Shown here: positions 56,466-61,017 of the stretch, piece by piece
Position numbering within the stretch: the first letter of the stretch is position 1
Layout: each line of letters opens with the position of its first letter
DNA from: Strobilurus pachycystidiatus
Lineage: Eukaryota; Basidiomycota; Agaricomycetes; Agaricales; Physalacriaceae
NCBI GenBank assembly: GCA_019915135.1
Contig: JAHLMK010000006.1
Coordinates: forward strand, 930,001 to 994,000
Length of the DNA stretch: 64,000 nucleotides
Direction: 5' to 3'
Notes under the pieces: generated by a model
Told to the model about the DNA's origin: nothing
Databases searched by the model: none
What the model saw: the letters and a program-made list of their open reading frames with translations, nothing else
Made by a program: the position numbers and the translations under genes

Positions 56466-59400
56466 ATGCCCCTCCATGAGACGCACGCAGAGACGGCAGT
56501 CTACATCACCTATTCGCACAGCACGCCCGCGGACGAGAAAAGCATAGGTGTGTGCCGCGCCGGGCGTCCATATGCTCTCGTCTCACGGCTTTCCCAGACT
56601 CGCACACCCACGATCCTCAGGTCGTCGTCCGCGTCGGCTCGGACGATGACCACGGTTATTTCGACCCCAATCTGGAAATGGACATGGACATGGAGGACGA
56701 CCGCGAGTCCGAGTTCGGTGCGCGCCGCTCTTTCTCTTGTCGGGTGATTGGCCGCTGACTTGCGCAGAGGAGGACTCGCCGTACCCCGAGGTACGCTGCG
56801 CCGTGGCCAACTTTGACGACCCAGAGATGCCCGCGTCGACGCTGCGCGCCTGGGTGCTCGGCATCTTCTGGGCGATTCTCATTCCGGGCATGAACCAGTT
56901 CTTCTTCTTCCGCTATCCCACCGTCAGCATCAGCGGGGTGCGTATCTTTTGCTCGTGTCTTCCCGTTGTCCGCCTCACGGCCAGCCGTTCAGCTCGTCGC
57001 CCAGCTCATCGTCTACCCCTTCGGGCGCGCATGGGCCCGCTTCATGCCAAATGTCCGGATATGTGGGGTATCAATAAACCCAGGGCCATTCACCATCAAG
57101 GAACATGTCAGTCAGCGCTCTACCCATGTCCCCCGTAGCCTCAACAGCCGTCCCAGGTCATCGTCACCGTCATGGCGGGCGTCGGCGCAGCTAGCGCGTA
57201 TGCAACCGAGATCGTCGCCGTCCAGCGGGTATACTACAACACCATCAACCCGTTCACCTGTATGTGATCCACCCGTACTCCGAGACCCGTCCGGGCCTTG
57301 CTCATCCACAACCGCTGCAGACCAGTGGCTGCTCGTCATGTCCACGCAGCTCATAGGTTTCTCAATTGGTGGCGTCACACGACGCTTTCTCGTTGCACCC
57401 CCTTCGATGAGTATGTCAAATGCCCTTTTTCACACTTGGTTCCTGATCTCAGATCTCTCAGTATGGCCAAACACACTCGTTCAATGCGCTCTTTTCAACA
57501 CCCTACACTCGCAAAGCTACACAGGCATCGGCACCCGCGCGGGGATGACCCGAGAAAAGTACTTTCTCTGGGTATTCGTCGGCGCCGTTCTTTGGTGTAG
57601 GTTACAAAAATAATCAAAATCGTACCATCGATTAATGAAACGGGCCCCTCTTAGATTTCATCCCTGGATATCTCTTCCAGGGCTTGAGGTACGTTTGGCT
57701 GGCTATCTGGTGACGAGAAACTGCACTCATTCAATGCCTTAGCTATTTCTCGTGGGTATGTCTTCTTCCAATTGAACAGTGGAATGCGGAGAACTAAGGA
57801 TATCTTAGGTGTGTTGGATAGCACCTCAGAACGTCGTAAGTCCGCCTCCGAGATCCCCATATACCACGTTAATCTTGGCCCCTAGAAATTGAATCAGATC
57901 TTTGGGTACGACACGCCACACGCTTCCACGATGTATCAAGCAACTGACATGACATACCCGACAGCTATCGGAGCGGCCTGGGCTTTTCCACCTTGACCTT
58001 TGATTGGAACCAGATTGCTTACATCGGGAGCCCGTACGTGTGAAAATTTACCTTTATCTGCACTCTGCTAACGTTTGCGTGCAGTCTCGCGACACCTTGT
58101 ACGTCCTCTGAACGCTTCTCCGGGGGTTTTCTGACGCGGTCATGTGCTAGGGTGGGCGGAGGCAAATGTGGCCATAGGCTTCCTATTTTTCTACTGTATG
58201 TCCGATGCACTTCTCGGTTGGCCTAATCACTGATTGATCGTTGTGCTCTAGGGTTCCTCGCACCTATACTCTACGTACGTAGCCGCCAACATCGCGTTTC
58301 TACTCTGGGCTCACAGCCTTCAAGTACAAGAATGTCTGGTACAGCCAATACCTCCCGTATGTTGTTCGCCCGTCTATTGCCGTTGTCTGACAGGATATCA
58401 GAATGCTATCAATCACACCCTACGACAACACCGGCAAAATTTACAATCATACCCGTATCCTCGATGCTTCAGGGGACGGTATCGACTTGGATGCCTACCA
58501 TGCTTACAGTCCTGTTTATCTATCGTACGAAGGCCTCTGACAATTCTTTCTGCATGAATCGCTGACGCTTCGCAGAATAACTTTTGCTATAGCTTATGGG
58601 CTCTCCTTCTTGAGCATTGCTGCTACTATTCCTCATGCGCTAATCTACTTTTCGAAACCTATCATGATTCACTTCAAGAGGAGCTTGCGAGAACCGCCCG
58701 ATATTCATGCACGACTAATGAAGACCTACCCACCGAGTTCGTGTCAGCTTTTCCTTGCTGTCAGAGAAGCATACTCAATGAACATCCAGTACCCGAGTGG
58801 CATTACGGGGTAATATTCGGTGAGTTCTCGACCTTTCCTTCCCCTGGGCTATGGTTGACGGCGGCGAATTCAGCGTTCACATTCACCGCTGCTTGTGTCT
58901 GTATACAATTGTGGCCCGGCGGTATGACGATATGGGCTCTGGTTATCGCTTTGGTTGTGGGCGTCATCTACGTGATTCCAATCGGTCCGTACATGTCATC
59001 TCCGCTGGATACTGGGTACTGAACGTCGCTCTCAGGCATGATTCAAGCCGTTACAAATCGGCAAATCGGACTCAACGTGGTAACGGAGTTGATCGTCGGG
59101 TTCATGATACCAGGTATGTCGCGCGACCCGTCCTGGAGGCTGTTGACCTGACCCACCGTAGGCCGTCCAACGGCGATGATGTTGTATGTCCAGTCTACTA
59201 CTTCTTGAGTGTCGGATCTCACATATGCTTCTTTTCTTCTAGGTTCAAGGTATGAAAACAGTCGATGTGGTGTAGATTAATTTGTTGATGTGGCTCGTGC
59301 AGACTTACGGCTATATTACGATGAGTCAAGGTGCTTTCTATCCCTTCATTTCAATCAAGGGCATTGGTATTCACCAAATCTGCAGCGATGCAATTTACGG

Positions 59401-60673
59401 CGGACCTCAAGTTGGGCCACTATATGAAGATACCCCCACGTCCAATGTTCTGGTGCCAGGTAGGACGGATACTTGGTCGTGCGAGGTCTCCAACTCATAC
59501 TTGATCATACAGGTGGTGTCTACGTTGATTGCGGGTACTGTGCAACTAGGAGTCCAGTCTTGGTAGGTTCATTAAATCCAGATGATCATCGAATATTAAC
59601 GGTGGTCATAGGATGTTCTCCAACATAGAGTATGCGCTCTCTCCGTCTGAGTCTCAAACGAAATGAATGACTAACGTCCGCGCAGAGATATGTGTAGCGA
59701 GAACCAGAAGGACAGGTGAGTGTATCTGTGATCCATATGTGGCCAGCTGCTGATGTTCTTCGAAGCTTTACCTGTGCGGGGACGCATGTGTTCGCCACAG
59801 CGTCAGTCATCGTGCGTATCACGTCCTGCTTTCTTTGTTATCCATACTGAACTGGCAGCGTACAATAGTGGGGTCTTGTTGGCCCTGGCTTACAGTTTGC
59901 GAGGGGGCAGATCTATTAGTGCGTTCTTTCTTTCTTCAGATGGTCCTCCTTCTGACGATAATCCTTCATTAGTGGTACGCAATGTCGAGAAATCGCTGAA
60001 TCTTCGGGCTGATCGCAATGACAGTTCTTGTATTTTGGTTCATCATCGGGGCGCTGTGTCCGATTGTACTATGGGCGGTCACTCGGAAGTGGCCAAATAC
60101 ATTACTCAACTACGTCAAGTGAGTTTCTTCCTCCCGTCTTTTCCGCCTTCTTTGCTGACGCTTCGAATAGTTTTCCGTACGCCACTCTTACTATTCTGGA
60201 TTTTCTTTCCGGGTATTGACGATTATGAAGGCTAATATTCTCCGGAGTGGACGCGATACCGCCTGCCACGGCATTGAACTATGTTCCATGGGTAATTGTT
60301 GGGTTCTTGTTCCAATATGTTGTACGACGGCGGAATTTTCCGTATTGGGCCAAGTATAATTGTGCGCTCCCGTCTCCCTTCCCTTGGCCTCTCTGTCAGC
60401 AACTGACGCTCTGCAATAGATGTACTCTCAGCGGCGTTAGACGCCGGGACGGGCGTTGCGGTGATATTGGTGTACTTCTGGTAAGTCCTCGTTAGTCGCC
60501 CAAGTTCATGTGATCTTACTTCCTTTCGAATACGTAGTCTGCAATACCCAATGAACGGCGCCGTCGGCGCAAACACCATACAGAAGTGGTGGGGAAACAC
60601 CGTGTACAAGGATACTGCCGATTGGAAGCTGACACCGTTGAGGACGCTGGCACCGGGGGAGCATTTTGGGTAA
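56466..60673 (+). CDS. OPT-family oligopeptide transporter, 36 exons
   Basis: I resolve 36 exons whose lengths total 2,361 nt, exactly 787 codons including the stop (786 residues, normal for OPT). N-terminal ~95 residues are cytosolic and acidic (EMDMDMEDD). Then come about 14-16 membrane segments with family text: SPYPEVRCAVANFDDPEMP, IPGMNQFFFFRYP, NPGPFTIKEH (the NPG motif), [78 protein letters not shown], and IPPATALNYVPW. OPT proteins import tetra- to hexapeptides or metal-chelate peptides with protons across the plasma membrane. Several exons are tiny: 7 nt (59243-59249), 2 nt (59973-59974), 6 nt (60171-60176), 13 nt (57743-57755) and 14 nt (58085-58098). Start at 56466 is chosen because a Met 5 nt earlier is out of frame. 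Confidence 0.92.
59973..59974 (+). other. Predicted 2-nt exon (TG) of the OPT gene
   Basis: Exon 30 ends in TA at 59918 and exon 32 starts with TT at 60025. Only insertion of the TG at 59973-59974 gives codons TAT and GTT and keeps the OPT frame. The flanking introns would be 54 nt (GTGCGT..TTAG) and 50 nt (GTACGC..ACAG), each with a CTGA branch-like site. Confidence 0.65.
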
Positions 60674-61017
60674 TCTTGTTGTTTGTAAGTAGTACATCTA
60701 TGTACGAGAGAGGGTTAGATATTTAATACTGTATCTTTAGTCGTGCGCCAGGGGGTTGCATTGTATTTTAGCACGAAACTAGACACGGACTGCTCTGCAA
60801 GAATTCGACGAAGTACATGACGAGACAAGTGTAGTCACTCAAAACCCGACTCGCGCCGAGCGTCAGCAGAAACACGTCAAACCCTTCTTTGAAACCATTC
60901 TTGAATCTTGAGCAAGAGTTAGAGTTTTTCTAGTATAAACACAATGGTTCAGTGGGAGGTCGCATAGCAGTGCACTAGTACTGAGCCCAAGTTTGACTGT
61001 CATTTCATATCGAAATC
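60674..61017. other. Spacer OPT to QCR8, no gene seen
   Basis: AT-rich 3' flank of OPT and promoter of QCR8. No coding ORF. Confidence 0.45.

Follow-up and report, generated by a model that had tools for sequence, protein, structure and literature searches.

Two nucleotides, TG, stand between two complete introns in an OPT transporter gene, which raises the question of whether they form an exon of their own or mark an error, a broken gene or another kind of intron. The gene lies in a window of 64,000 nucleotides, the whole stretch of DNA analysed (C6:930001-994000 of a 52-Mb assembly). It was rebuilt by hand and afterwards by a spliced aligner of our own making, which permits GT-AG and GC-AG introns, exons of at least 1 nt and, at a penalty, frameshifts. 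In the final model by spliced alignment the gene runs on the forward strand from start to stop codon (56466-60673) through 36 exons, with all 35 introns of the GT-AG type and a single frame of 775 amino acids open throughout. Profile searches matched the predicted protein to Pfam OPT (PF03169) with 620.9 bits over positions 2-623 of 623, and to TIGR00727 (ISP4_OPT) with 770.4 bits against a cut-off of 438.7. Judged by these profiles, the protein is a full-length ISP4-type OPT (small oligopeptide) transporter, above the curated cut-off. The closest protein among the matches listed (best 120 of 2274) was from Hymenopellis radicata, with 82% identity, which points to an agaric close to the Physalacriaceae as the source. 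An earlier note on this DNA had given a total of 787 codons, which we did not reproduce; our first hand-built version encoded 781 amino acids, and the discrepancy between 787 and 775 lies in other exons, not at the TG site. The first exon or exons are the part of the model held with least certainty, two reference proteins having yielded differing first exons at the N terminus in spliced alignment. The spliced alignment also placed two further microexons on the forward strand, exon 23 of 7 nt (GTTCAAG, 59243-59249) and exon 33 of 6 nt (TTTTCC, 60171-60176).

The site reads ATCTATTA|gtgcgt...cattag|TG|gtacgc...tgacag|TTCTTGTA (introns and TG, 59919-60024, forward strand). Exon 30 (59869-59918), which consists of WGLVGPGLQFARGQIY followed by TA, ends in ATC TAT TA and so with two bases of a codon. 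Exon 32 (60025-60118 by spliced alignment), which encodes (V)LVFWFIIGALCPIVLW..., is in the frame (x)TT CTT GTA TTT TGG, and the frame across the junction requires two extra bases (modulo 3). When TG is kept as exon 31 (59973-59974), it completes TAT (Tyr-633) and begins GTT (Val-634), and the protein reads GQIYYVLVFWFIIGA. The 54-nt intron 30 (59919-59972, GTGCGT...CATTAG) contains a branch-like CTGAC (59952-59956), the A of which lies 17 nt before the intron end, and the 50-nt intron 31 (59975-60024, GTACGC...TGACAG) contains a branch-like CTGAT (60009-60013), with its A 12 nt before the end. Both motifs fit CTRAY, and the donor GTACGC is used again by the intron at 60177. The earlier note had described these two introns around a 2-nt exon, a CTGA branch-like site in each and the restoration of conserved OPT text, all of which we found in the sequence. 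It had also stated that removing the 106 nt as a single intron shifts the frame, and this was borne out: skipping TG led to a stop at residue 709, while retention of intron 30 led to a stop at residue 633 and retention of intron 31 to one at residue 646. The other 33 introns of the gene measure 45-71 nt (mean 53.8, sd 4.7). Lengths of 54 and 50 nt fit this range, whereas 106 nt is an outlier. TG is thus an internal segment between complete GT-AG introns, required for the frame and for the conserved protein text. Other ways of joining exons 30 and 32 were tried and rejected. A single 106-nt intron broke the frame, an exon starting at the earlier acceptor CAG|ATGG made a stop of TA plus A and left an intron of just 21 nt, and single non-canonical introns, 104 nt long and beginning at the GT or just within it, gave a stop when read from the sequence.

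Since introns 30 and 31 resemble the gene's remaining short introns, each is probably recognised across the intron. Two spliceosomes would not fit on sites two bases apart, so these sites would not be bound simultaneously and the introns would be removed sequentially; whichever was removed first, the other would keep complete signals. Inclusion of TG would then join Tyr-633 and Val-634 within a conserved hydrophobic stretch. Two complete introns two bases apart, with sequential removal likely, are also what would be seen in one composite intron, a nested twin intron or one removed by recursive splicing, that leaves no base behind. In stwintrons and in zero-length recursive splicing the entire stretch is removed and no exon base is kept. 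At this site the removal of everything lost the frame and led to the stop at residue 709, and we regard a composite intron as exceedingly improbable.

We assessed how often chance would provide such an exon by shuffling the interior of the 106 nt 10,000 times with dinucleotide composition preserved. In 1.6% of the shuffles two bases flanked by introns of 40 nt or longer could serve as an exon that restored the frame; when exons as long as 30 nt were allowed, the figure was 6.0%. No shuffle (0/10,000) combined a 2-nt exon with a GTRNG donor and a CTRAY motif in each intron. The first two frequencies lend something to the reading of the gene as a pseudogene, frameshifted at this site, in which the TG exon is a coincidence. 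Against that reading, the rest of the 775-amino-acid frame is intact over 36 exons, the Pfam OPT profile is matched over positions 2-623 of 623, and the arrangement is repeated in a second gene described below, so that we consider a pseudogene very improbable. In the actual sequence, just two GT-AG exons no longer than 30 nt restored the frame without a stop while leaving introns of 40 nt or more: TG itself and an exon of 11 nt (TGGTACGCAAT|GTCGAG; TG plus GTACGCAAT) that shares its acceptor. The longer exon keeps the frame open. It would, however, add three residues that are absent from intact relatives, and it demands a 41-nt intron, below the gene's 33 other introns, with a GTCGAG donor; moreover, it has no counterpart in the second gene.

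Spliced alignment was also run with 51 jgi/lgn-only homologues as references, each aligned from residue 481 against 59401-60700. The aligner picked 59973-59974 in 51/51 runs and the 11-nt exon in none, which, with the points above, leaves very little probability for the longer exon. When the TG acceptor was masked in silico, the score fell by a median of 25 units (range 16-27). We suspect that many of the jgi/lgn contigs are transcripts, because those of ~2.4-3 kb carry frames of ~2.3 kb; some contigs are longer than this. Towards the end of a distant OPT paralogue (L049, 3412-3413) the aligner also put a 2-nt exon with the donor gttgac; this is probably an alignment artefact and shows that the aligner is capable of placing a doubtful 2-nt exon.

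We compared the site with 13 further OPT regions from this genome and found the same arrangement in one of them, a paralogue on C29 (L039). There the sequence reads TTATTA|gtgcgt, with an intron of 53 nt, tcaaag|TC|gtatgt, with an intron of 47 nt, and ctgcag|CCCTGG, giving TYYPLVYFF. The 2-nt exon (3766-3767 of L039 by spliced alignment) differs in its letters, TC versus TG, while the codon and both phases are identical and the upstream TATTA|gtgcgt is shared. The TC exon was recovered with 51/51 jgi/lgn-only references, and masking of its acceptor cost a median of 21 score units; in the printed cases with a masked acceptor, one for the window gene and one for C29, a frameshift was placed instead. 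Shuffling of the C29 interior gave a frame-restoring 2-nt exon in 6.5% of 10,000 shuffles, and one that also had the donor and branch conditions in 0/10,000. In a third region, the C5 paralogue (L040), the site was read straight through and is intronless, which is best read as the loss of both introns. Spliced alignment placed no 2-nt exon at the site in the remaining 11 regions, although two of them, L041 and L045, gave alignments too poor for a verdict.

The TC exon in C29 makes a sequencing error or a broken gene unlikely. The lost frame could instead reflect an assembly or sequencing indel in a gene with one real intron, as one base lost near the junction would likewise mend the frame. Such an error would, however, need the same two bases at the same codon on another contig, where the sequence offers AG|TC|GTATGT, and it would leave a lone intron of 106 nt in the window gene or 102 nt in C29, about twice the usual size. 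The gene models of relatives break here as well, and we give an indel scant credence.

Other very small exons were seen in the C29 paralogue. A 3-nt exon TTT (3962-3964 of L039) lies near the place of the 6-nt exon TTTTCC of the window gene (60171-60176), and several published relatives are without part of the NFP text at this place; judged from these texts, this microexon was probably missed in published models too. A 4-nt exon TGGG lies at 3609-3612 of L039, and the models P0199, P0204, P0216, P0222 and P0238 have other residues at the Trp-Gly of this exon.

We examined how published proteins behave at the site. Three protein searches returned 2274, 1760 and 2144 matches, and the best 120 of each were combined into 258 distinct proteins. 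Among the first 120 homologues, an indel at most two residues from the site was found in 23/95 annotated proteins versus 0/25 jgi/lgn-only proteins. The annotated proteins of this set showed two local indel peaks of at least 0.2, one at the TG site and one at residue 381; at the latter (0.92 and 0.96) the window protein has one residue more than most homologues in both sets. The next-highest junctions in annotated relatives were those of the 6-nt exon (0.15-0.16) and then the 7-nt exon at 59243-59249 (0.12-0.13). When all 258 proteins were flagged for an indel within three residues of the site or a lost motif, 63/207 annotated and 2/51 jgi/lgn-only proteins were flagged, both of the latter (P0043 and P0208) by the motif pattern alone, without an indel. 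In two flagged proteins, P0056 and P0171, the indel is probably a real deletion of one residue.

A FastTree tree, computed with the site region left out, placed the flagged annotated proteins in two clades: 38/80 in the window clade (96 leaves) and 24/50 in the C29 clade (69 leaves), compared with 1/77 outside both, where the C5 clade had 0/31. The difference (62/130 versus 1/77; Fisher p 8e-15) is indicative, the clades having been chosen after the counts were seen and related proteins being non-independent. An earlier tree of 179 database proteins gave 34/80 flagged in the window clade and 1/67 elsewhere. The earlier note's view that such exons are missed by gene finders is thus borne out in part: 38/80 annotated window-clade proteins are flagged, and the other 42/80, whose genes may hold the microexon or be intronless there, carry no flag at the site. 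Seven polypore models (P0124-P0129 and P0135) omit the whole of exon 32 and read YY|LMFTG or YY|FPLMFTG, an omission that the phase conflict would force.

Some faulty models appear to run on past the end of exon 30. A donor placed two bases further on creates a codon N-G-T, its N being the base that opens the corresponding codon of intact relatives, and this predicts Arg where the relatives have Pro, and Gly where they have Ala, Gly or Val. The predicted residue was found in 16/19 run-on models (P0015, P0027, P0052, P0054, P0066, P0068, P0090, P0101, P0110, P0118, P0122, P0134, P0141, P0203, P0210 and P0238), with P0069, P0094 and P0239 not fitting and P0001 and P0230 left out. These were scored by eye because 25 of the 63 flagged proteins were without the upstream motif and some rows of the run-on table (P0012, P0015, P0018, P0055, P0056, P0071, P0090 and P0128) were anchored at an earlier motif. 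Arg was present as predicted in 9/10 run-on models with Pro relatives and at this position in 0/193 intact proteins, although the Arg of P0122 could equally derive from a split codon. Gly occupies the position in 47/193 intact proteins, so the Gly cases are weak. Adding P0001, which is ambiguous, and P0230, which has Gly despite Pro relatives and reads exon 32 out of frame, changed the counts to 16/21 and 9/11. One model, P0210 from Armillaria borealis, has 18 extra residues, which we interpret as the in-frame translation of a second intron of 54 nt.

The species with these faulty models belong to the Agaricales, Polyporales and Russulales, the last represented by one Gly case. This span of orders, together with the presence of the arrangement in C29, leads us to think that it is old and that orthologues across several orders of Agaricomycetes would share it; their introns were inferred from faulty protein models, not from DNA, and a search for relatives among genome and viral contig collections found none. 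The tree set the window clade apart from a clade that contains both the C29 and the C5 genes (supports 0.992 and 0.975). If the window gene and C29 inherited the exon from a common source, C5 must therefore have lost it, and this history appears more likely than two separate gains with both phases identical.

We consider it very likely, on the strength of the sequence, that the two bases TG form a real internal exon in a functional OPT transporter gene, an old microexon that would be spliced in vivo. Much more tentatively, the 2-nt exon might be ancestral in Agaricomycete ISP4/OPT genes, predating the duplication that separated the window and C29 genes, kept across orders and losable, as in C5. 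It might persist as a checkpoint in which the obligatory removal order acts and splicing efficiency sets the amount of transporter, an idea suggested by the early end of translation upon skipping (residue 709) or retention of either intron (residues 633 and 646); we hold this wider proposal to be unlikely. If the exon is confirmed, mushrooms of several orders would splice a 2-nt exon reliably in their transporter genes, in two or more paralogous lineages, and this would provide a natural series for the study of how the spliceosome handles, and in what order it uses, sites two bases apart. Many public mushroom OPT proteins would then probably be wrong at the site (63/207 annotated proteins were flagged), and such faulty models matter to those who use them in work on structure, expression and phylogeny.

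The earlier note had placed exons this small at the limit of what spliceosomes handle, which is too strong, 1-nt exons having been reported in Arabidopsis (PMC4674806) and Fusarium (PMC12940212). The 1-nt exon of Arabidopsis APC11 is described as experimentally supported (PMC4674806), another is reported in plant VPS55 (PMC8831610), and exons of 2-5 bp are stated to be known in Arabidopsis, Drosophila and humans (PMC12940212). A word search of the open-access literature returned, among the matches listed, no paper describing a microexon in an OPT gene or an exon of 2 nt in a mushroom. As far as the literature listings show, the kind of exon is already known; new are its occurrence in this gene family and in a basidiomycete, the difference in letters between paralogues and its apparent breadth.

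The closest parallel is Fusarium CYP621A, reported as the first 1-nt exon of a fungal gene and supported by RNA reads (Nelson and Syed 2026, PMC12940212). As presented there, it too is an ultra-short exon within a conserved motif of a fungal nuclear gene, it was likewise detected through a phase conflict, an "intron" of double length and homologues, and nearly all listed models miss it. CYP621A is an ascomycete P450 gene with an identical candidate exon in 24/24 genes (PMC12940212), whereas the exon in the window has 2 nt, belongs to a basidiomycete transporter, varies in its letters between paralogues and is predicted from sequence. Like the exons of APC11 and VPS55, it is an ultra-short exon between two introns that is apparently old, mostly unannotated and replaced by intronless copies in some lineages; the plant exons are reported as 1 nt long and experimentally verified (PMC4674806, PMC8831610). 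In Xlr2 of Trichoderma virens, another filamentous fungus, a microexon is reported with regulated inclusion (PMC11121469), of which the TG exon gave no sign. Among basidiomycetes, the P450 genes of Phanerochaete chrysosporium share with the window gene tiny exons and very short introns, with microexons encoding 2-10 amino acids and introns of 45-55 bp; their shortest reported exon is 6 bp (PMC1184071), compared with 2 nt in the window gene.
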